Shown here: positions 41,768 to 54,823 of the stretch, in pieces | How positions within the stretch are numbered: the first letter of the stretch is position 1 | Layout of the letters: every line of letters begins with the position of its first letter | NCBI RefSeq assembly: GCF_001447355.1 | Contig: NZ_JXBW01000001.1 | Coordinates: forward strand, 62,001-126,000 | DNA length: 64,000 bases | Direction of reading: 5' to 3' | Source: Alicyclobacillus tolerans | Lineage (GTDB): Bacteria > Bacillota > Bacilli > Alicyclobacillales > Alicyclobacillaceae | Notes under the pieces: generated by a model | What the model was told of the DNA's origin: nothing | Database searches by the model: none | The model's input: the letters and a program-made list of their open reading frames with translations, nothing else | Program-made: the position numbers and the translations under genes

Positions 41768-42966
41768 ACAATGCGCAAATGGGTCAGGTTGTAAACCTAG
41801 GCGAAGGAGGCTACTTGCCCTGGCAGCATGTTTCGCGTGGCCTGCGCGTCTCTGTGAGCCTGCTCCATGGATGTGCCGGAACGCTACTCGCGGCGACACT
41901 GGCCTGGGACCACAAATCGGCGACGCTCGCACTTGTCTTCGCATGGCTTGCCTGTACGACCGCAAGTCTGACGACAGCTGGTCTGATGCACAGACTGCGG
42001 CCGCCGGTGAGCTTACTTGTGGGACTCGCCACAGCCACTGCCCTTTGCGTCGCACTTGTCGTCCCGACGCGTGCGGGCACGGGATGGATGGCGGCGATTA
42101 TCGTCTCCGCCCTGCTCGCAAGTGGCCTCAATATGACTTATATGTTCGAGGGAGATGCCGTGCACGCAGGCGCCCGCAATTTGCGATGGATAACAGGCAT
42201 CGCGGCATTTGGAGCGGTTTTCTACGCACTTGTTCAGGCGCGCGATCCAGCGGCACGAAATGCCGGCGCGGTCGGATTTACCTTCATCTTCACCATGGGC
42301 CTGGTCATCGCCCAGATGATGATCATTCGCCGAGCACAGGCGGAAGCGACGAAACTGTCCCAACGTGCGATCCTCTACGCGCCGCTCGGGCTGGCCGAAC
42401 TCCCGCGCGCGCTCAAGCATCTGCGCCCCATCGTCCGCTATCTGCTGACAGGATTGGCCATCGCGCTCGGCATGCTCGGGTTGGCTTCCTTACTTATGCA
42501 CTTTGTCAGCCGTTTGCACCTCGCTGGCCGCAGTTCACAAGTCACGCCCAAGCCCCCGTTGCACAGCCATCTGCCGCAGCGGCTGCCGCCTGTACACGCA
42601 TGGGCCGGCGGTACTTCGTGGCTGCTTTGGAGCGCAGTCGCGATTTGTGTGGCGATTGCCATACTGTGGCTTTTGCGCCAGCAAAGGCGACTGGCAAGTG
42701 ATGTGAACGAGCCCACCGCCGTTGCGATCACGATTGTCCGCCGCTCGGCAAGCGAGGCATTTCGCTTGCAGGCAACAGGGGATCCAACGCGTAAAGCGTA
42801 CCAGGCGCGTTTACGAACCTGGCACGCTCACGGACATACCATCGGACGAGCGGATACGCCGCGAGCGTTTGCTATGCGCCTGCCCACGGATGAGCAGCAG
42901 ACGACCGACGCCGATCTGTTGCAACGATACGAACGCGTTCGTTACGGCCGTCCCGGCGAACCATAA
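41764..42966 (+). CDS. Multi-pass membrane protein of the MoxR/DUF58 operon, DUF4129-like tail
   Basis: 400 residues from GTG 41764 (GAGGTGA seven bases upstream), overlapping DUF58 by four bases. Hydrophobic helices about 28-50, 53-75, 80-100, 103-125, 145-165, 172-192, 225-250 and 290-310. The C-terminal 75 residues, with a conserved GDP-K-AY-LR pattern and a PRAFAMRLP segment, resemble DUF4129. In comparable operons this place is filled by a transglutaminase-like membrane protein; here no transglutaminase Cys-His-Asp set is visible. Its last 25 bases overlap manA tail-to-tail. Confidence 0.6.
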   Translation: MNNAQMGQVVNLGEGGYLPWQHVSRGLRVSVSLLHGCAGTLLAATLAWDHKSATLALVFAWLACTTASLTTAGLMHRLRPPVSLLVGLATATALCVALVVPTRAGTGWMAAIIVSALLASGLNMTYMFEGDAVHAGARNLRWITGIAAFGAVFYALVQARDPAARNAGAVGFTFIFTMGLVIAQMMIIRRAQAEATKLSQRAILYAPLGLAELPRALKHLRPIVRYLLTGLAIALGMLGLASLLMHFVSRLHLAGRSSQVTPKPPLHSHLPQRLPPVHAWAGGTSWLLWSAVAICVAIAILWLLRQQRRLASDVNEPTAVAITIVRRSASEAFRLQATGDPTRKAYQARLRTWHAHGHTIGRADTPRAFAMRLPTDEQQTTDADLLQRYERVRYGRPGEP

Positions 42967-43937
42967 AACGTGCGGATCGCAAGGAAATCTCCGGTACAAG
43001 CTAATGTATACCCTTGCAGGTCAGACGGAATCAACACTGTATCCCCTGGGACAAGAGACATCGCACGTTCCGTACCATCCCCTGGGTCAAAGCGGAGTTC
43101 GCCCTTCCCCTCGACCGCGATCACGACGTCCGGATTCCCAGGCACGCCGTGCGTAACTCCCGCAGAACGTCCGCGTAGCAGGACGCGATCAATCGTGAAG
43201 TAAGGACATTCCGCCAATCGGGTCAGCGCGAAGTCCACTTCTTCGTGCAAGATCCGTGGTTGGTCCATGGGCTGCGCGAGTGCACCGTAGACCAGCACGT
43301 CGGCCGCCTTGTCGACGTGTAACTCGCGCGGCTTCCCGCTTGCGTCCACCCGATCCCAATCATACACGCGGTACGTGACGTCCGACGTCTGCTGAATCTC
43401 GAGGACCTTTGTGCCAGCCAAGAGCGCGTGTAACGTTCGCGCCGGGACAAACACTAAATCCCCCTTCTGAATCGGTAGGTAGTTCAGGTAGTGGCGCACC
43501 TGGCCTTCTGCAACCGCTCGCAGATAGGTTTCGCGATCAGGGAAGGTGTGTCCGTAATTCACCTTTCCATCCGACTTAGCATCAAGAACGTACCAAGCCT
43601 CTGTCTTCCCGAAATCCCCCTCATGCTCTCTGGCATACGCATCATCGGGATGGATCTGCACAGACAAATCGCTCTCGGCCTCCAGATACTTGATAAGGAG
43701 TGGAAAGCGCCCTTGCGGGGAGCGTCCCAAGTACGCACCTGGATGCTCCTCGGTCAACTCCGCAAGCGTCCGCCCTGCAAGCGGGCCATCCGCGACGACG
43801 CTCATGCCGTTGGGATGACCAGACAGCACCCAGTACTCCCCAATAGGTTCGTCCACTTGCACCCCAAACGTCGATTTCAGCGCGTGCCCGCCCCAGATAC
43901 GCGGCATTGGCACGGGTTTAAACTTCACTGGCCACAA
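42942..43937 (-). CDS. manA: Mannose-6-phosphate isomerase, type I
   Basis: 331 residues. Zinc-site block VQIHPDDAYAREHE, then FVPARTLHALLAG with the Glu/His ligands nearby and a C-terminal cupin half. It interconverts fructose-6-phosphate and mannose-6-phosphate. The start is TTG 43937, overlapping the end of the dehydrogenase gene, with AAGGAG about eleven bases upstream. The 3' end overlaps the converging membrane gene by 25 bases. It gives a source of mannose precursors, relevant to the mannosyltransferase-like protein at 38.5 kb. Confidence 0.92.
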   Translation of the reverse strand: MWPVKFKPVPMPRIWGGHALKSTFGVQVDEPIGEYWVLSGHPNGMSVVADGPLAGRTLAELTEEHPGAYLGRSPQGRFPLLIKYLEAESDLSVQIHPDDAYAREHEGDFGKTEAWYVLDAKSDGKVNYGHTFPDRETYLRAVAEGQVRHYLNYLPIQKGDLVFVPARTLHALLAGTKVLEIQQTSDVTYRVYDWDRVDASGKPRELHVDKAADVLVYGALAQPMDQPRILHEEVDFALTRLAECPYFTIDRVLLRGRSAGVTHGVPGNPDVVIAVEGKGELRFDPGDGTERAMSLVPGDTVLIPSDLQGYTLACTGDFLAIRTFYGSPGRP

Positions 43938-44935
43938 GACTGCGACAACTCCTTTGCGAGATCCTGAAGCTCAGGCACAATTTTGGCGTCCTGAATGCGC
44001 CCTTCAATCACGGCGATCAGGTTGTCGATAGCCAGTTGACGCATCGCGTCCCGCGTCGCATGCGTCGCCGAACCGATATGTGGCAATGCGACGACGTTAG
44101 GCAGCTTGAGAAGTGGGTGATCATGTGGCACAGGCTCCTGCTCGAAAACATCGAGTCCTGCGGCGCGGATGCCGCCGCTCGTGAGCGCCTCATATAACGC
44201 TGTCTCATCGACGGTTTTACCGCGTGAAATGTTGATGAAGATGGCCGAAGGCTGCATCTTGGCGAACATCTGGCGGTTCATCAAACCGACCGTCTCTTTC
44301 GTGAGCGGCGTAAGAAGCACGACAAAGTCAGATGCCGCGAGCAGATCCGGTAAGTCGAGGTACACGGCCTGTAATTCCTGCTCCACGCTTTCATGGCGAG
44401 AGCGACTGTTGTAGAGCACATTCATGCCAAATCCGAGGCGCGCCCGGCGCGCTACGGCATGCCCAATCCGTCCCATCCCCACAATCCCCAAGGTCCTGTG
44501 GTGCACATCGACGCCGTACAACACTTCGTCGTCTCCGCGCTGCCAGTGGCCCTGCCGTACATAGGCATCAAGTTCAACCACTCTGCGAGCGGTCGCAAGC
44601 ATCAGAGCAAAAGCGAGATCGGCCACCGTTTCATCGAGGACGCCAGGCGTGTGGGCTCCAAGCACGCGGTGCTTGCGCATGGCTGGGATGTCAAAGTGGT
44701 CGTATCCGACCGAAGAGGTGCTTACAACGCGTAGACGCGGGGCTGCCGAAAGCAAGGTCTCATCGACGCGCGTGCCACTGGTAAGCAGCGCGTCCGCCTT
44801 GGCAATGGCGTCAAATAAGAACGATTTAGCAAGCGGTCCTTCGCCTTCCCAAGCAACGACCTCGCCCATGGTGGCCAGCCTGGCTCGTTCGGCAGCGCGA
44901 AGCGGTTTCGTCGAAAGTATACGAACCACATACAT
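43925..44935 (-). CDS. D-isomer-specific 2-hydroxyacid dehydrogenase
   Basis: 336 residues. NAD-binding GMGRIGHAVA, catalytic Arg in NISRGKTVDE, Glu in DVFEQEP and His in LPHIGSAT are all present. This set fits glyoxylate/hydroxypyruvate reductase-like (GyaR) or 2-ketogluconate reductase enzymes. GTG 44929 (GGGGG six bases upstream) is a good alternative to ATG 44935. Overlap with manA by 13 bases points to an operon. Substrate is not determined. Confidence 0.85.
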   Translation of the reverse strand: MYVVRILSTKPLRAAERARLATMGEVVAWEGEGPLAKSFLFDAIAKADALLTSGTRVDETLLSAAPRLRVVSTSSVGYDHFDIPAMRKHRVLGAHTPGVLDETVADLAFALMLATARRVVELDAYVRQGHWQRGDDEVLYGVDVHHRTLGIVGMGRIGHAVARRARLGFGMNVLYNSRSRHESVEQELQAVYLDLPDLLAASDFVVLLTPLTKETVGLMNRQMFAKMQPSAIFINISRGKTVDETALYEALTSGGIRAAGLDVFEQEPVPHDHPLLKLPNVVALPHIGSATHATRDAMRQLAIDNLIAVIEGRIQDAKIVPELQDLAKELSQSCGQ

Positions 44936-45080: not shown

Positions 45081-45551
45081 TTGGACAACCCATCCATCTG
45101 TTCGCTGTGTGTCGATTATGCGTTGGGAGAATTGTCAGATGAACTTCTGAAGAAGCGGTTTGAGCGTCATCTCGGCCACTGTCACACTTGCCAGCGCGAC
45201 GTACTGGAATACCGCGAATTGATTGATATGTTCGAGCCTCGGTCGGAAGCGGAATTGCATGCTCAACAGCAGCGGAAATTGGCTGAAGTCATACCATTCC
45301 CCAGTCCCTCGCGAGCCGACATCCGGACTCGCGCGGTCAGGTATGCCCGACGTAGACATCTCACGGCGTTGACACTGTCGGCGGCGCTTTTATTGATGAG
45401 CTTTTTAAGCATCACGGGAGATCACGGTAAATACAGCCGTGCCATCGGTTTTGCCATCACGTGGCATCGCATTTCGCACGTTTCCCGCACGCTCATGGCA
45501 AAGGGCGAACAGCTCACGGACAAAATTCATATCAAGCATGGTCTGCTTTAA
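45081..45551 (+). CDS. Zinc-finger (zf-HC2) anti-sigma-like membrane protein
   Basis: 156 residues from TTG 45081, which follows AAGGTGGG by six bases. The N-terminal domain has the zinc-binding pattern: CSLC early, then HLGHCHTC, as in anti-sigma factor N-termini. A membrane helix spans about 98-118 and a short outer tail follows. Such proteins hold an ECF sigma factor at the membrane, but no sigma-factor gene is next to this one. It could be an orphan anti-sigma factor or a structural sporulation protein. Confidence 0.65.
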   Translation: MDNPSICSLCVDYALGELSDELLKKRFERHLGHCHTCQRDVLEYRELIDMFEPRSEAELHAQQQRKLAEVIPFPSPSRADIRTRAVRYARRRHLTALTLSAALLLMSFLSITGDHGKYSRAIGFAITWHRISHVSRTLMAKGEQLTDKIHIKHGLL

Positions 45552-45586
45552 AAGGGTCAATCGACGTGTGTCGATTGACCCTTTTT
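45550..45586. terminator. Strong two-way terminator
   Basis: A 16-bp stem (AAAAGGGTCAATCGAC at 45550-45565 with its inverse at 45570-45585), 4-base GTGT loop, and A/T tails on both sides (TTTTT on the plus strand). It ends both the zinc-finger gene and the leftward Gfo/Idh operon. Confidence 0.92.
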
Positions 45587-45680: not shown

Positions 45681-46844
45681 TCACCGATACTCGACCGTTT
45701 CCCACTTTTTTGTTGCGGCGGATTGCTCCACCGTGTGCAGAATACATTGGTTACGAACGCCGTCTTCAAAATCTGGCTTGCACGGCGAACCATCCACCAA
45801 ACTCTTAAAGAAGGTCGCAAACAGGTTCATAAAGGTGTGTTCGTAGCCAATAATGTGCCCGGCGGGCCAATATTTGTCTGCAAACGGATGTACTGGCTCC
45901 GTGCAATTGATGGTCCGGAAGCCCTGCAATCCAGGTTCGTCGTCCTCCAAATACACGTGCAAAAGATTCATATTTTCCAAATCCCAACGCAGGGATCCGC
46001 GCTCACCGTTGATTTCGAAGCGATTGCCATTACGGTTACCCGCCGCAAAACGCGTCGCCTCGAACACACCTAGCGCGCCGTTGTCAAAATGCGTCAGAAA
46101 TGCGACCGCATCGTCGACATCCACGTTTCCCGTCTGCGAGCGATCCGCACGTGCCTCCAAGCCGCCAGCCATCTCGCCGAGCGGCCGCTCTTTGATGAAA
46201 GTCTCCATGGTCGCCGCGAGATCGCGTACTTCCCCGACTAAAAACCGCGCAAGATCGAGAATATGTGCGCCGATATCGCCAAGCGCCCCAGACCCTGTGA
46301 CTTCTTTGCGCAAGCGCCACACGAGGGGGAAGTTCGGATCCATGATCCAATCCTGCAAATACTGAGCACGGACGTGATAAATCCTGCCAAGTCGTTCATC
46401 GTCGATGAGCCGTTTCGCCAACTGCACCGCTGGGGCGTAGCGATAATTGTGACACAGCAACGCGCGCACACCGCTTTTTTCAACGGCTTCACGCATACGC
46501 ACCGCTTCCTCGACGGTCATCGCCAAAGGCTTCTCACAAATCACATGCTTGCCTGCCTGCGCCGCCGCAATCGCCATCTCGGCATGGGCGACGTTGGGCG
46601 TCACGATGTCGATCACGTCGATGTCGTCGCGCTCAATGAGCCGACGCCAGTCCGTATCGTAAGAGGCAAAGCCATATTGCTCTGCCGCTTGGCGAACCGC
46701 CTCTTCATTGCGGCCCGCGATTGCCTGTAACACAGGTGTCACAGGCAAATCGAAGAAAAAATCGAGATCGCGAAACGCATGGCTGTGTGCCTTCCCCATA
46801 AACTGATAGCCAATCATGCCGATTCTCAGTGCCCGTTTCGACAT
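45681..46844 (-). CDS. Gfo/Idh/MocA family oxidoreductase (first of two)
   Basis: 387 residues. Rossmann N-terminus IGMIGYQFMGKAH, catalytic-site CEKPLAMT, and a D-G-A-H substrate motif GALGDIGAHILDL. This family oxidises or reduces sugars, inositols or glycosides with NAD(P). ATG 46844 follows GAAGGAGG. Last gene of a six-gene minus-strand operon. With the second copy next to it and three TIM-barrel isomerases, a pathway that oxidises a sugar-like substrate and then epimerises or breaks it is likely. Exact substrate unknown. Confidence 0.85.
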   Translation of the reverse strand: MSKRALRIGMIGYQFMGKAHSHAFRDLDFFFDLPVTPVLQAIAGRNEEAVRQAAEQYGFASYDTDWRRLIERDDIDVIDIVTPNVAHAEMAIAAAQAGKHVICEKPLAMTVEEAVRMREAVEKSGVRALLCHNYRYAPAVQLAKRLIDDERLGRIYHVRAQYLQDWIMDPNFPLVWRLRKEVTGSGALGDIGAHILDLARFLVGEVRDLAATMETFIKERPLGEMAGGLEARADRSQTGNVDVDDAVAFLTHFDNGALGVFEATRFAAGNRNGNRFEINGERGSLRWDLENMNLLHVYLEDDEPGLQGFRTINCTEPVHPFADKYWPAGHIIGYEHTFMNLFATFFKSLVDGSPCKPDFEDGVRNQCILHTVEQSAATKKWETVEYR

Positions 46845-46875
46845 GCCGATCCTCCTTCAATACCCCTGGGCCAAC

Positions 46876-47919
46876 TTACAGCCGCACGGCTTTTCCGAGT
46901 TCAGCGGATCGATACAGACCATTGAGAATCCGCTGCAGTTTCACGCCCTGTTCCGGCGTCGAAAGCGGTGGTTCGCCACCCAAACATGCGTCGACGAACC
47001 GTTTGATCTCGCGCTCATAAGGCGAAATATCCGGAAGGAATGTTGGGCTGACATCGATGAGCGCACCGTGCTTTTCCTGATAAATCTCCAGTGGGAAGAC
47101 GTTGGCTCCGCCAGCGTCACCCATCAGCTTGACGTTCATCTCGTCACGGATTTTGACATTGGCTGCAAACGCCGACTCCAGGACGAGCGTCGCGCCGTTG
47201 GCAAACTGGACGAAACCGCGCGCCATGTCCTCGACCGTAAAGTTTTCATAGTCCCAGTCGCCAAGCAAGCCAACGCCCTTGCGCGTACCCAGCTTCTGAT
47301 ATGTCGCGCCAAAGACCATCGTCGGTTCTGGATAGCCCATCAAGAACAGCGCCGCATCGAGCATATGGCAACCGATGTCGATGAGTGGACCGCCGCCTTG
47401 CAGTGCCTTGTTGGTAAACACACCCCACCCCGGAATGCCGCGTCGGCGCATCGCGATGGCTGTCGCCGCGTAGATGTCGCCAAGCTCTCCTGCATCGATA
47501 AAGCGCTTTAAAGTATCGACTTCTTTCGAATGGCGGTAGTGAAATCCATACGAGAGAAATTTCCCGGCCCGCTTCGCGGCATCTGCCATCTCCTGAGCCT
47601 CTTCCACCGTCATCGCCGGTGGCTTTTCACACAAGACGTGGCACCCTGCATTCAGGGCCGCGATCGACGCATCTTTGTGGAACTTGTTCGGTGTGCACAC
47701 GCTCACGACATCGAGCTTGGTCCCTGCCAGCATCTCATCGACCGTGTGGTACACGTTCGGGATCGAAAATTTTTCTGCAGCTTCCTGGGCTTTCTCGAAT
47801 GCGACGTCGCAAATCGCTACAATTTCAACTTTATCTCCGCACTTCAGGTAGTTCGGAATGTGCACCTGTTGTGCGATCCCACCGGCACCCACAATACCTA
47901 CGCGCAATGTGTCCGCCAT
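46876..47919 (-). CDS. Gfo/Idh/MocA family oxidoreductase (second of two)
   Basis: 347 residues. GIVGAGGIAQQVH NAD-binding start, CEKPPAMT catalytic lysine block, GPLIDIGCHMLDA substrate site. It differs from its neighbour in the EKP loop (CEKPP), so the two are not recent duplicates and may act at different carbons or steps. ATG 47919 follows AAGGAGG. It is 31 bases upstream of the previous gene and 13 downstream of the next, within one operon. Confidence 0.85.
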   Translation of the reverse strand: MADTLRVGIVGAGGIAQQVHIPNYLKCGDKVEIVAICDVAFEKAQEAAEKFSIPNVYHTVDEMLAGTKLDVVSVCTPNKFHKDASIAALNAGCHVLCEKPPAMTVEEAQEMADAAKRAGKFLSYGFHYRHSKEVDTLKRFIDAGELGDIYAATAIAMRRRGIPGWGVFTNKALQGGGPLIDIGCHMLDAALFLMGYPEPTMVFGATYQKLGTRKGVGLLGDWDYENFTVEDMARGFVQFANGATLVLESAFAANVKIRDEMNVKLMGDAGGANVFPLEIYQEKHGALIDVSPTFLPDISPYEREIKRFVDACLGGEPPLSTPEQGVKLQRILNGLYRSAELGKAVRL

Positions 47920-47932
47920 CTGACGCTCCTCC

Positions 47933-48901
47933 TTATGCCCACCACATCTGTTGCAATTTTTCGCGAATGATCAGCGGCTTTAAAAAGTCGACCGCCTTCT
48001 GGAACCCCTCTTCAATCGACATCAGGCTGTCCTCATGTTCAATGGAGACAGCGCCTTCATAACCCGCGAGTTGCAAGGCACTGATGATGTCCACCCAGGT
48101 CTGGCTGTCGTGACCATAGCCCACAGTGCGGAAGATCCAGGAACGCTCCTTCTCTTTGGCGTACGGCTTGGTATCCAGTACCCCGTTGACGGCGACGTTG
48201 TGACGATTGAAACCAGTATCCTTGGCGTGTACGTGGAAAATGGCGTTATGTTGAGCAAGGGCATGAATCGCCTCAACAGGGTCAATGCCTTGCCAAAACA
48301 TGTGGCTCGGGTCAAAGTTCACGCCAATCTGCTCACCGCAAGCCTGCCGCAACCGAATCATCGTCTCCGCATTATAGACCACAAAACCAGGATGCGCTTC
48401 GATCGCGACGCGTACACCGCACTCTTTCAGAAAGGCATTCATCTCGGTCCAGTACGGAATGACCTTTTCGTTCCACTGCCAGTCTAGTACCTGAGAAAAC
48501 TCCTCCGGCCACGGGCAGGTAACCCACACAGGATTTTGCGAGTGTTCCGACTCACCCGGGCAACCCGAGAAGGTGTTCACCGTGTCGACGCCAAGCAGTG
48601 CAGCCAGTTCGATGGTCTCCCGCAGCTCGCGCTGTGCTAGTTCCCGCTTCGTCGCGTCCGGGTGCAGAGGATTGCAGTGACAGCTAAGCGCGCTGATGGA
48701 AAGTCCCCGCGACGAAATCTCGTCCAGAAACGCCTTGCGCTTATCGGGGCTGGCGAGCAGCCCTGCGCGATCGCAATGTGCACCGCCCGGATAGCCGCCT
48801 GTCCCGATCTCGACCGTATCGACACCGGCCTTGGCAACGTGATCAAGCATCTCAGAAAACGACATATTGCCAAACAGTACGGTAAAAACGCCAAGTTTCA
48901 T
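47933..48901 (-). CDS. Xylose-isomerase-like TIM-barrel protein (sugar phosphate isomerase/epimerase family)
   Basis: 322 residues from ATG 48901 (AAGGAGG six bases before). AP_endonuc_2 fold with metal ligands suggested by EAHPGF, NFDPSHMFWQG and HVHAKDT. Similar proteins act as epimerases, isomerases or dehydratases of keto-sugars or inositols (IolE, IolI, YcjR are relatives). Directly upstream of the Gfo/Idh pair. It is the largest of the three family members in this operon. Confidence 0.82.
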   Translation of the reverse strand: MKLGVFTVLFGNMSFSEMLDHVAKAGVDTVEIGTGGYPGGAHCDRAGLLASPDKRKAFLDEISSRGLSISALSCHCNPLHPDATKRELAQRELRETIELAALLGVDTVNTFSGCPGESEHSQNPVWVTCPWPEEFSQVLDWQWNEKVIPYWTEMNAFLKECGVRVAIEAHPGFVVYNAETMIRLRQACGEQIGVNFDPSHMFWQGIDPVEAIHALAQHNAIFHVHAKDTGFNRHNVAVNGVLDTKPYAKEKERSWIFRTVGYGHDSQTWVDIISALQLAGYEGAVSIEHEDSLMSIEEGFQKAVDFLKPLIIREKLQQMWWA

Positions 48902-48938
48902 ACGCATCCTCCTTCAAGCAGGAAACTACATCGAGTGG

Positions 48939-49688
48939 TTACGCTTTCACGCGCGACTGTAAAAACGCGAGGGACGACTGAATCGCTGCAAGCGGATCCC
49001 CCGGACACACATCTTGTTCGACGATATAATAGCGAACACCTGCCGCTTCGGCCGCCGCGATGATGGCAGACCAGTCGAGCACGCCCGATCCGACTTCTGC
49101 AAACGCGCCCGTTTCACCGTCGGCATCCTTCATGTGTAACAAATCGGCACGCCCACGATAACGCTGCAGATATTCGACAGGGTTATATCCCGCACGATGT
49201 GCCCAGTAGACGTCCAGTTCCATCTGTACCCCATCTTCGGTAAGCCCACTTAACAGGGTATCGAGCGCGGTTGAGCCGTCGAATACCTGAAACTCAAAAT
49301 CGTGGTTATGGTAAGCCAGACGAAGTCCTGCCTCATGCAGCGTCGACGCTGCGCGACGCAAAATGTCAAATAATTGGTCGTAATCCGCCTTCGTTTGTCG
49401 GCGTTCCGGAGGCAACCACGGGCAAACGACATAATCGAGCCCTATCTGCTTTGCTTCCTCGACCACCTTGTCCAACTCGCTTTCCAAGCGGACAAGCGGA
49501 ACATGGCAAGACACAGCACGAATGCCCAAATCGTCGAGCAACTCACGCAGCTTGGCAGGCGTATAGTCGCCGTAGGTGTGGAGTTCAACTACGCGATAAC
49601 CGATATCGCGAACCTTATTCAGCGTGCCCGCAAAGTCCGATGCGAGCAAGTCGCGCAATGTGTACAGTTGCAGTCCGATTTCAGTCAA
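48939..49688 (-). CDS. Xylose-isomerase-like TIM-barrel protein
   Basis: 249 residues from TTG 49688 (AAAGGGG nine bases before; TTG 49697 also possible). Ligands visible in AYHNHDFEF, ELDVYWAHRAG and LLHMKDAD, the pattern of inosose/keto-sugar isomerases. A short family member that also fits a 2-keto-myo-inositol isomerase. It follows the next gene by an overlap or close spacing, so translation is coupled. Confidence 0.8.
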   Translation of the reverse strand: MTEIGLQLYTLRDLLASDFAGTLNKVRDIGYRVVELHTYGDYTPAKLRELLDDLGIRAVSCHVPLVRLESELDKVVEEAKQIGLDYVVCPWLPPERRQTKADYDQLFDILRRAASTLHEAGLRLAYHNHDFEFQVFDGSTALDTLLSGLTEDGVQMELDVYWAHRAGYNPVEYLQRYRGRADLLHMKDADGETGAFAEVGSGVLDWSAIIAAAEAAGVRYYIVEQDVCPGDPLAAIQSSLAFLQSRVKA

Positions 49689-49690
49689 AC

Positions 49691-50533
49691 TCAACAATCC
49701 CCTTTCACATTTGCAATCATCTGCGTCAGGCGTTCAAACGCAGCCTGTGCCCGTTCTTCATTCGATCCGGCAAGTGGCTCCTGATGCAACACTTCGGTTG
49801 ATACCGGTCCGCGATAGCCGGCTTCATACAGCGCTCGCAGGAACGGAGCGAGTGGAATTCTTCCGTCTCCCGGCAGACACCGCCGCTGATCATGCGCCAG
49901 TGATGGCTCTTCGATCGCATCATTTACATGCACATGCACAATCTGTTCCGGTTTTAGAGCAACGAGATCGTCCGTCGACTCTTCGGCGGTGTACCAGTGG
50001 AAACTGTCGATCAAAAAGCCGACATTGGGAGCACCGACAGCTTCTAAAAATATAGCGAGTTCCGCGAGATTCTGGACAAAGGGATACGCTCGATTCCGCA
50101 AATGATGCGGACCGACGTATTCCAAGCCCATACGCACCCCATGCGGCATCAAGGCGACGGCACACTGGCGCAGGCGACGAGCCAAGCGCGAAGCATACGG
50201 GACGGGTCGCTCGTCGATCGATGGCCACAGAAATGTGGTGCAGCGAACGGCGCCAAGGCCCACGGCAAAAGCCACCCGTTCCGGCAGCAGAGCGAGATCG
50301 CGCACATAGTCGGCCTCATCGGCGTACAGGTCGACCGGCAAGCCAAAGCTTGCAAGCCTTAGGCGACGCGATTGAAACATCACTTCGACACGGGAAGGAG
50401 TGGTCTTCTCGACTTCCTGGTGAAGCCAATGGAGTGGAACGTCCACCCATTCATAACCGCACTGTACCGCGAGATCCAAATAGGCCTCCAACTCGTTTGT
50501 GTCGACGAGCGACGGATGTAGACAAGGTTTCAT
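49691..50533 (-). CDS. Xylose-isomerase-like TIM-barrel protein
   Basis: 280 residues. Ligand-bearing strands GLEYVGPHH, FLIDSFHWYTA, HVHVNDA and STEVLHQE match the family. ATG 50533 follows GGTGAGG, overlapping the stop of the VOC gene by four bases (ATGA). It diverges from its two neighbours in sequence, arguing for separate substrates or steps and not simple gene duplication. Confidence 0.8.
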   Translation of the reverse strand: MKPCLHPSLVDTNELEAYLDLAVQCGYEWVDVPLHWLHQEVEKTTPSRVEVMFQSRRLRLASFGLPVDLYADEADYVRDLALLPERVAFAVGLGAVRCTTFLWPSIDERPVPYASRLARRLRQCAVALMPHGVRMGLEYVGPHHLRNRAYPFVQNLAELAIFLEAVGAPNVGFLIDSFHWYTAEESTDDLVALKPEQIVHVHVNDAIEEPSLAHDQRRCLPGDGRIPLAPFLRALYEAGYRGPVSTEVLHQEPLAGSNEERAQAAFERLTQMIANVKGDC

Positions 50534-50967
50534 ACGCGGGCCTCACCTGCCAAAGCTGCTCGAGCAGCCGCCTGCGGGGATGCCGGATCCAGTTGCATGA
50601 ATTCAATTGGATTACCGTCCGGATCGTGCGACCAACATTGCCAGTTCTTGTCCAGGCCTTGTTTGGGCGCGACGTCTAGGGGTGCACCTTTGTCACGCAG
50701 GGCTTCGGCAACTTGCTGGATATCGTCGACTTCAAAGCAAAGGTGTGCAAACCCGATGCGATCCGGCGCCGAATGCGTTTTCACCGAACCGCCATAAAAT
50801 AACTCGATGAAACGCCCATCGGGACAGCGCAAATAGACAATCCACGGCGTTCCATCTTCACGATGGATGTCAAATGCCCGATGGCAACCGAGAACATCGC
50901 AATAAAAGCGCAACGATGCCTCCATATCTTCAACCGTTAACGCCACATGCCCGATTCCTTGAATCAT
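50530..50967 (-). CDS. VOC-family metalloenzyme (glyoxalase-like)
   Basis: 145 residues, two beta-alpha-beta modules. GHVALTVEDMEASLRFY start, HLCFEVDD and DPDGNPIEFMQ with the typical metal-binding His/Glu. VOC proteins include glyoxalase I, dioxygenases and epimerases; a lyase or isomerase of a keto-sugar is possible here. ATG 50967 follows GAGGAGG. It is the first gene of the six-gene operon. Confidence 0.8.
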   Translation of the reverse strand: MIQGIGHVALTVEDMEASLRFYCDVLGCHRAFDIHREDGTPWIVYLRCPDGRFIELFYGGSVKTHSAPDRIGFAHLCFEVDDIQQVAEALRDKGAPLDVAPKQGLDKNWQCWSHDPDGNPIEFMQLDPASPQAAARAALAGEARV

Positions 50968-53292: not shown

Positions 53293-53422
53293 TCTAGGAT
53301 TGATCTAATAAACGGGAAGTCAACAGTGAATCTTGGGGGTGAAATGGGGTTTTATGGTATATAAAATCTGAATTTGATATGCGAATAATGCGATTTCACC
53401 GGTTCCATTCCCCACCACTGTC

Positions 53423-53803: not shown

Positions 53804-54823
53804 TCACCGCGCCGTCGATCCGCGCACGTGCAGCGCCGACGGCACCTTGATGCGCTTCGGTTTCCCCTTCGCCCCCATGATGCGCGCGACCAGGCGTTTG
53901 GCGGCCAGGGAACCGACCTGGTACGTCGGGTGATCGATGGTGGTGATGCCCGGGCCAATCAACGCCGCCCACGCCCAATCGTCGTAGCCACAGAGCCCGA
54001 TGTCCGCTGGAATGCGAACGCCTAGTGCGGCGGCGCTTTTCAGGATGGCCAGCGTCGTCACACCGTTGACGGAAAAGATGGAACGGCTGCGCCCCTGCGA
54101 AGCGGCGAGAAACGCCTGCAAGTCCCGCTGAACGTCGGATGTCGGCGACTCGAACACGTACGCGTCGCCCGTCCGGTTGGCCCGCCAGAAATCCAGGTAC
54201 GCCTGCAGCCGATTGCGCCGGGCGCTGTTTCGGCCAATCGGCTGTGTGAAAAACGCGATGGCGTCGAAGCTCGCCTGATCCATGTGCCGCATCGCTTCCA
54301 TCGTCATCGAGTAGCTGTCGCTGACAACCGTGTCGAAGACGAGTGTCTCCATTTCGCGTTCGACGATCACGATGGGACAGTGCTTCCCTAACTCCACCAA
54401 GGTGTCATCGTTGTAGCCGGTGGTGTTGACAATCAGCCCTTCCACCCGTTCGTCGCCGACGAGCGATTCGAGCGCTTCCCGCTCTTTGGCAGGATTCTCA
54501 TCGGCATCGGCGATGATCATGTGAAAGCCAAGCTCGTTGCAGAGATCGCCGATGGCCTTGACGAGAATGGAGGAAAACGGGCTGCCGATATCCGCGACGA
54601 TCACGCCAATGAGCCCGCTTCGCTTCGACTTCAGACTGCGGGCCGATTGGCTCGGACGATAGTTCAGTTCGTCCACCACCCGCTGAATCCGCCTGCGCGT
54701 CTCCTCCGACATGAACTCAAATTTCCCGTTCAAAAACCGCGAAACGGTTGTCTTCGAAACGTTTGCCTGGCGCGCGACCAAATCGATAGTCGGTCTCTGA
54801 TGTCCCTCCGGCATCGCTATCAC
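53804..54823 (-). CDS. LacI-family transcriptional regulator
   Basis: 339 residues. N-terminal HTH (IDLVARQANVSKTTVSRFLNG), hinge, then a periplasmic-binding-protein-like sensor with LIGVIVADIGSPF, FSVNGVTTLAIL and DIGLCGYDDW. It probably represses the adjacent sugar operon and releases on binding a sugar or sugar-phosphate. Last gene of the seven-gene minus-strand cluster; start ATG 54814 or GTG 54823, neither with a strong ribosome site. A cre-like site at 61158-61171 upstream of the operon may be its target or that of CcpA. Confidence 0.88.
   Translation of the reverse strand: MIAMPEGHQRPTIDLVARQANVSKTTVSRFLNGKFEFMSEETRRRIQRVVDELNYRPSQSARSLKSKRSGLIGVIVADIGSPFSSILVKAIGDLCNELGFHMIIADADENPAKEREALESLVGDERVEGLIVNTTGYNDDTLVELGKHCPIVIVEREMETLVFDTVVSDSYSMTMEAMRHMDQASFDAIAFFTQPIGRNSARRNRLQAYLDFWRANRTGDAYVFESPTSDVQRDLQAFLAASQGRSRSIFSVNGVTTLAILKSAAALGVRIPADIGLCGYDDWAWAALIGPGITTIDHPTYQVGSLAAKRLVARIMGAKGKPKRIKVPSALHVRGSTAR

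Follow-up and report, generated by a model that had tools for sequence, protein, structure and literature searches.

Within a stretch of 64,000 nt of the Alicyclobacillus tolerans genome (contig NZ_JXBW01000001.1, positions 62,001 to 126,000), referred to below as the window, six genes packed on the minus strand at 45681-50967 form an operon which probably encodes a cytoplasmic, non-hydrolytic route for the removal of glucose from a glucoside or an anhydro-glucoside. Every reaction of this route is proposed on the grounds of homology, residue conservation and synteny. In the first step GFO_A, a dehydrogenase of the Gfo/Idh family, would oxidise the C3 hydroxyl with NAD+ to give a 3-keto-glycoside; TIM2, a divalent-metal enzyme, would then release the aglycone by beta-elimination, leaving 2-hydroxy-3-keto-glucal, which TIM3 would hydrate to 3-keto-glucose; finally GFO_C, the second Gfo/Idh protein, would reduce 3-keto-glucose to glucose with NADH and regenerate NAD+. 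The four proteins would constitute a closed cycle with the net conversion of a glucoside to glucose and aglycone without a glycosidase, and the free glucose would enter metabolism via a kinase encoded elsewhere. As the product is free glucose the operon can do without a kinase, and the lack of one, stressed in the first-pass annotation of this DNA, is what pathways of this kind lead one to expect. The remaining two proteins would play accessory roles: TIM1 probably acts as an isomerase or epimerase on one of the keto-sugar intermediates, so widening the substrate range or rescuing side products, and the VOC protein probably handles a keto sugar or the aglycone.

Glycosides can be cleaved without hydrolysis by way of 3-keto intermediates, an alternative to glycoside hydrolases that has been recognised recently. 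A gut Bacteroides pathway is, we assume, the one behind the PDB entries 8tcd and 8tdi. The sequence of oxidation, elimination, hydration and reduction to glucose has been demonstrated for levoglucosan in Bacillus smithii (PMC7676230), and the same net scheme has been predicted by the authors of PMC10628242 for operons of Agrobacterium tumefaciens and for gut PUE operons. The chemistry and four of the six genes are of a known kind, and what is new is the presence of TIM1 and the VOC gene in the set together with its conservation throughout the genus. In the literature searched no paper was found that links Alicyclobacillus with 3-keto glycoside-cleavage chemistry. Since the operon is intact in 14 of 15 genomes of the genus, nine of them of just 2.8-3.2 Mb, the route appears to be a core trait of Alicyclobacillus.

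The six open reading frames (ORFs) are all open and follow the transcriptional order VOC, TIM1, TIM2, TIM3, GFO_C and GFO_A. By Pfam they comprise one Glyoxalase/VOC protein, three PF01261 barrels and two Gfo/Idh/MocA proteins. At the first two junctions the genes overlap (by 4 and 7 bases) and at the following three they are separated by 31, 13 and 31 bases, which indicates a single operon. The first-pass annotation had described this packed six-gene set with the correct boundaries, and its remark that the barrels and the dehydrogenases are unlike one another also holds, since the three barrels match each other with at most 38 bits and GFO_C is 30% identical to GFO_A.

Proteins assigned to the four proposed reactions

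For the elimination step, TIM2 matches the PDB entry 8bvk (145 bits), which we take to be the eliminase AtOGE of Agrobacterium tumefaciens. The printed alignment is consistent with the residue numbers published for AtOGE, an enzyme described as catalysing Mn2+-dependent beta-elimination of the aglycone from a 3-keto-O-glucoside (PMC10628242). H132, H134, D163, H189 and E233 of AtOGE are aligned with H130, H132, D162, H188 and E227 of TIM2, and E39, H66 and E161, reported as metal ligands in the other subunit, with E38, H65 and E160; the roles of these eight residues come from the same paper. All eight metal or catalytic positions, the catalytic His included, are invariant across 12 aligned sequences.

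Over 324 aa, TIM3 shares 54.6% identity with LgdB2 from the levoglucosan-utilisation (lgd) cluster of genome G326, the LgdA of which scores 759 bits on the NCBIfam model LevoglcsnDh, above its curated cut-off of 650. LgdB2 of B. smithii has been reported to convert 2-hydroxy-3-keto-glucal to 3-keto-glucose with Mn2+ and to have some eliminase activity (PMC7676230). Hence steps 2 and 3 are predicted from homology combined with the full complement of residues named for AtOGE in the case of TIM2, and with 55% identity in the case of TIM3. The TIM3 tree had weak root support (65/85) and was not used as evidence.

GFO_A scores 413 bits on LevoglcsnDh. Its best matches in PDB are 4h3v (429 bits), entitled 'Oxidoreductase domain protein', and 6a3f (334 bits), a solved levoglucosan dehydrogenase (LGDH) which is identified through PMC10066097, where the enzyme appears under 6A3I, a PDB entry with a sequence identical to that of 6a3f. 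GFO_C finds its best PDB matches among DgpA proteins (9m3d, 266 bits; 7xr9, 248 bits) and shares 45.5% identity across 343 residues with Escherichia coli YcjS, annotated in RefSeq as a D-glucoside 3-dehydrogenase. According to the literature, DgpA oxidises glycosides at C3 and is able to reduce 3-oxo-glucose. The roles of C3-dehydrogenase and 3-keto-glucose reductase are accordingly predicted by homology to LGDH, YcjS and DgpA, and a swap of steps 1 and 4 between GFO_A and GFO_C could be accommodated by this homology.

Gene content across the genus and the order

The genes TIM1-TIM2-TIM3-GFO_C-GFO_A occur in constant order and on the same strand in 14 of the 15 genomes of the genus; in the remaining one, G005, TIM1-TIM2-TIM3-GFO_C are present and GFO_A lies elsewhere in the genome, so that the first four genes are found together in all 15. 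Such a fixed arrangement shows that the gene set has not come together by chance. The identity of TIM1 to its counterparts in Alicyclobacillus hesperidum and Alicyclobacillus sacchari is 96% and 84%, respectively, and dN/dS ratios calculated against the genus genome G011 (0.026-0.113 across the six genes) indicate purifying selection on all of them. The five-gene core is therefore old and maintained. The exact six-gene set, with the VOC gene ahead of TIM1, was found in 7 of the 15 genomes, about half of the genus, so that the conservation which the first-pass annotation had proposed to check extends to the core and not to the complete set.

At the level of the order, GFO_A was present in 29 of 59 genomes (match E 1e-60 or better). 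Its neighbourhood was scored as genes on the same strand within 7 kb of GFO_A at E <=1e-15, with the genes for the D-2-hydroxyacid dehydrogenase and mannose-6-phosphate isomerase described below not counted as parts; under this rule G005 was counted with a ThuA-like gene 6.8 kb and a GFO_D gene 5.7 kb from GFO_A. TIM3 was found near GFO_A in 22 of the 29 genomes, GFO_C in 19 and GFO_D, a different Gfo/Idh protein, in seven. Either GFO_C or GFO_D was present in 25, and both together in G028 only. The place of the eliminase was occupied by TIM2 in 16 genomes, by a ThuA-like protein in four and by an LgdB1-like barrel in three, with none of the three in the other six, and no two of them ever co-occurred on the GFO_A strand within the 7 kb. 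The 29 genomes are related to one another, so these counts do not represent independent events. As TIM2, ThuA and the LgdB1-like barrel apparently replace each other in one slot, a lyase activity towards 3-keto-glycosides is predicted for ThuA, which may have this function. The ThuA domain was assigned by Pfam in the query protein from G450 and in the protein of G050, the only one scanned of the four ThuA-like proteins.

Relatives of GFO_A accompanied by a ThuA-domain or ThuA-like protein in the place of TIM2 and by a further Gfo/Idh protein were also seen at the loci L115, L179, L180, L080, L082-L084, L087 and L110, the arrangement at L080 and L082-L084 being judged by eye. In G032 the run TIM2-GFO_C-TIM3-GFO_A adjoins a GH1 glycosidase gene (Pfam), a LacI-type gene and ORFs resembling ATPases of ATP-binding cassette (ABC) transporters (by eye).

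The same gene neighbourhoods bear on a different explanation, which partly overlaps the proposed route and which we regard as possible though the less likely one, namely that two modules for different substrates are stacked in the operon, TIM1, TIM2 and GFO_C on the one hand and GFO_A with TIM3 on the other, the dehydrogenase of each module both oxidising the substrate and performing the final reduction. That one enzyme could do both is suggested by what the literature ascribes to DgpA alone. G040 and G026, which have no GFO_A match at E 1e-60, contain TIM2 with GFO_C-like and TIM1-like genes and an ABC transporter; TIM3 and GFO_A form a pair in G017, G019 and G070; and in G050 a TIM2-TIM1 pair stands opposite a GFO_A-TIM3 operon. 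However, the five genes share a single operon in 14 of the 15 genus genomes, G015 and G032 keep TIM2, TIM3, GFO_C and GFO_A together without TIM1, and in G040 and G026 the proteins related to GFO_C and TIM1 share just 35-39% identity with those studied here. In G026 (L095, 215-10262) a GH125 mannosidase gene, ORFs resembling ABC transporter components and the TIM2, GFO_C-like and TIM1-like genes lie in a single run, which hints at a glycan as the substrate of a TIM2/TIM1 module.

Several observations weigh against the four-step route itself. TIM3 matches the solved hydratase 8ro4, the title of which reads '2-hydroxy-3-keto-glucal hydratase', weakly (46 bits, residues 127-315), and because LgdB2 of B. 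smithii itself has eliminase activity TIM3 might perform step 2 too, TIM2 then doing something else. The substrate of GFO_A, and even the carbon that it oxidises, we infer from homology, its score lying under the LGDH cut-off. TIM1 and the VOC protein are not explained by the four reactions. No conserved transporter adjoins the operon in the genus genomes and no glucokinase scores above the ROK cut-off in this genome (best 255.6 versus 260.35 bits), hence the downstream kinase is unproven. The exclusivity of the eliminase slot is based on related genomes; moreover, the TIM2-TIM1 pair of G050 lies on the opposite strand beside a ThuA operon, and in G005 TIM2 is found elsewhere in the genome, with ThuA 6.8 kb from GFO_A. 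Finally, among the genes sought, G017 and G019 have TIM3 and GFO_A alone and G054 and G055 have GFO_A alone, so the full gene set is not obligatory.

TIM1, the VOC protein and competing pathways

TIM1 is an orthologue of the protein in PDB entry 3u0h (370 bits, 60% identity), an Alicyclobacillus acidocaldarius structure released in 2011 under a title that names only a 'xylose isomerase domain protein'. With a profile built from 15 TIM1 sequences the next match was IolI (1i60; 121 bits, profile positions 11-275 of 281), followed by ketose 3-epimerases among others. IolI is a 2-keto-myo-inositol isomerase. Its E, D, H and E positions, which we take to be those binding the metal, are aligned with the TIM1 profile. 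The AlphaFold model of TIM1 (pLDDT 94.9) gave fold matches with Z scores of 43.6 to 3u0h, 30.3 to IolI and at most 27.8 to the other structures among the 50 matches listed; YcjR (6wn6) came at rank 40 with Z 23.7, and the absence of 8bvk and 8ro4 from these 50 matches excludes nothing. From the profile and the modelled fold TIM1 is predicted to isomerise or epimerise a keto sugar. It is dispensable in G015, the operon of which has the VOC gene and lacks TIM1. When plasmids were searched with TIM1, the best-ranked place was on a plasmid of Streptomyces sp. NBC_00015 (L109, 5738-12371), where a relative of 31.8% identity is surrounded by genes for a Gfo/Idh protein, a methionine adenosyltransferase, a glycosyltransferase and a carbamoyltransferase in what looks like a biosynthetic cluster.

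In the VOC protein H7, E55, H75 and E122 are invariant in all ten aligned sequences. They presumably correspond to the metal positions of the glyoxalase type, and the protein is predicted to be a metal enzyme of that type. VOC and TIM2 homologues occur as a stand-alone pair in G017 (L184, 6251-7551), which is the best hint that VOC works with the eliminase. Tentatively, TIM1 and VOC may extend the non-hydrolytic route by reactions that have not been described, such as the isomerisation or epimerisation of 3-keto-hexoses, which would admit glycosides other than glucosides, or the repair of 3-keto-glucose isomers; the operon would then represent a distinct branch with interchangeable slots, that of the eliminase filled by TIM2, ThuA or an LgdB1-like barrel and that of the reductase by GFO_C or GFO_D, and with ThuA as a 3-keto-glycoside lyase. 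The operon in any case provides a testable context for the orphan structure 3u0h and for an uncharacterised VOC protein.

That the operon serves levoglucosan utilisation, as the LevoglcsnDh score of GFO_A and the resemblance of TIM3 to LgdB2 could be read, is very improbable. GFO_A stays below the 650-bit cut-off, which the LgdA proteins of G326 and G006 exceed (759 and 737 bits). In a tree of 54 rows an LGDH clade (support 100/96) unites 6a3f, LgdA of G326 and G006, one Deinococcus and two Sinorhizobium proteins and leaves out GFO_A, which belongs to a separate clade of 25 rows (100/100); this tree is midpoint-rooted, so the two clades are called neighbours and not sisters, and it includes seven long-branch rows of unsure placement. 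No orthologue of LgdB1 was found, the best matches being a barrel outside the operon (39 bits) and TIM2 (29 bits), nor one of LgdC, which is 29% identical to both Gfo/Idh proteins. Moreover, G006, itself an Alicyclobacillus, has an operon of the window type and, separately, a full cluster of LgdC, LgdB2, LgdB1 and LgdA (L183, 4798-9137). On the cut-off, the tree, the missing LgdB1 and LgdC and this co-occurrence the levoglucosan operon was rejected.

We give equally little credence to an epimerisation of the kind attributed to YcjQRS, in which C3 would be oxidised, TIM1 would epimerise a neighbouring carbon and reduction would follow with the glycosidic bond left uncut. It draws on the likeness of GFO_C to YcjS, the two dehydrogenases in the operon, the resemblance of TIM1 to isomerases and epimerases and the place of YcjR among its listed fold matches. 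Yet none of TIM1, TIM2 and TIM3 has a sequence match to YcjR, no protein of the operon matches YcjQ (at most 23 bits in both cases), and the eliminase-type TIM2 and hydratase-type TIM3 would be left without a role; the ycj pathway as a whole was set aside save for YcjS.

The least probable explanation, catabolism of inositol or another cyclitol in which TIM1 would be an isomerase like IolI and both Gfo/Idh proteins would be inositol dehydrogenases, has in its favour the profile and clear fold match of TIM1 to IolI and a match of GFO_A to the scyllo-inositol/L-glucose dehydrogenase 5ya8 (209 bits), and was set aside, together with the kinship to inositol breakdown proposed in the first-pass annotation, because the operon proteins score 124-126 bits for IolG against a cut-off of 355 and at most 50 for IolE against 290, and because IolD, above its cut-off in 4 of the 15 genus genomes, is absent from this one (best 199.5 versus 715 bits), whereas TIM1-TIM2-TIM3-GFO_C occur in all 15.

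Related systems and genomic setting

Among characterised systems the closest to the proposed glucoside route are lgdA-lgdB1-lgdB2-lgdC of B. smithii S-2701M and the glycoside operon of Agrobacterium tumefaciens. The former, as presented in PMC7676230, resembles the window operon in having two Gfo/Idh proteins, PF01261 barrels with an LgdB2-type hydratase and, by prediction here, an end product of free glucose. The window operon differs from it by an eliminase of the AtOGE type, the additional TIM1 and VOC and the lack of an adjacent conserved transporter and of LgdB1 and LgdC orthologues, a comparison made with the cluster of G326 in place of the B. smithii sequences. With the A. tumefaciens operon, which encodes AtOGE and AtHYD (PMC10628242; 8bvk and 8ro4), it shares the metal and catalytic residues of the eliminase, a hydratase-type barrel and, by prediction, a final reduction by a Gfo/Idh protein. 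There the first oxidation is attributed to GlycDH of the GMC family (PMC11239390), whereas both dehydrogenases of the window operon are Gfo/Idh proteins, and TIM1 and VOC are again additional. The intermediates of these pathways, 3-keto-glycoside, 2-hydroxy-3-keto-glucal and 3-keto-glucose, fit the long chain of keto intermediates suggested in the first-pass annotation, which had named neither system; its other suggestion, that there are several substrates, is neither favoured nor contradicted by the evidence. It was mistaken in crediting the known relatives with a single dehydrogenase and a single isomerase, as lgd has two dehydrogenases and two barrels and E. coli ycj two dehydrogenases and one barrel. 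Its interpretation is upheld in part.

The E. coli ycjQRS genes, for interconversion of D-gulosides and D-glucosides, share with the operon a YcjS homologue, GFO_C; the operon lacks matches to YcjQ and YcjR as well as a kojibiose phosphorylase and a phosphoglucomutase. For the A. acidocaldarius structure 3u0h, represented here by its orthologue TIM1, the operon supplies a pathway context. Trehalose and maltitol utilisation of the ThuA/ThuB type is reportedly found in rhizobia. Relatives of GFO_A in Priestia, G028, G037, G050 and several other genomes adjoin a ThuA-type protein and another Gfo/Idh protein, whereas there is no ThuA in the window operon.

The features of the operon are collected in Table 1.

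Table 1 Coordinates and predicted functions of the operon genes and the downstream hairpin (window positions)
Feature	Length (aa)	Position	Strand	Family and predicted function
VOC	145	50530..50967	-	VOC-family protein; Pfam Glyoxalase PF00903, 77 bits
TIM1	280	49691..50533	-	PF01261 barrel of the 3u0h/IolI-like type; predicted keto-sugar isomerase/epimerase
TIM2	252	48939..49697	-	PF01261 barrel; predicted 3-keto-O-glycoside beta-eliminase (AtOGE type)
TIM3	324	47933..48907	-	PF01261 barrel; predicted 2-hydroxy-3-keto-glucal hydratase (LgdB2 type)
GFO_C	347	46876..47919	-	Gfo/Idh; predicted D-glucoside 3-dehydrogenase acting as 3-keto-glucose reductase
GFO_A	387	45681..46844	-	Gfo/Idh; predicted NAD-dependent glycoside C3-dehydrogenase
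Likely terminator		45550..45585	readable from both strands	Perfect inverted repeat flanked by runs of A and of T

The inverted repeat is placed approximately 100 bases downstream of the GFO_A stop codon, and the surrounding 60 bases fold at -28.3 kcal/mol. A simple terminator scan returned two terminator-like sites against 5.9 expected, this hairpin not among them, and a promoter scan returned three sites against 3.5 expected, each on the strand opposite to the operon. The genes behind the hairpin (42942-44935) encode a GhrB-like D-2-hydroxyacid dehydrogenase and a mannose-6-phosphate isomerase of class I, and their homologues come after the operon in 13 of the 15 genus genomes.

From 2.8 kb upstream of the operon there follow genes for LacI (53804-54823), another Gfo/Idh protein (the third), one more PF01261 barrel, the permease of an ABC transporter and a sugar-binding protein. 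The observation in the first-pass annotation that no regulator or transporter stands beside the operon is therefore accurate for its direct neighbours and fails farther out. The block belongs to a stretch of about 13.3 kb, from window position 53295 to approximately position 128576 of the contig (L191 up to 4577), which neither A. hesperidum nor A. sacchari has at the corresponding position; because it is missing there it is not counted as part of the system, and its candidacy as the ancestral transporter and regulator of the operon was rejected. At the far end of the stretch there are IstA-like and IstB-like ORFs, and a second barrel-like ORF lies inside it, all of them judged by eye.

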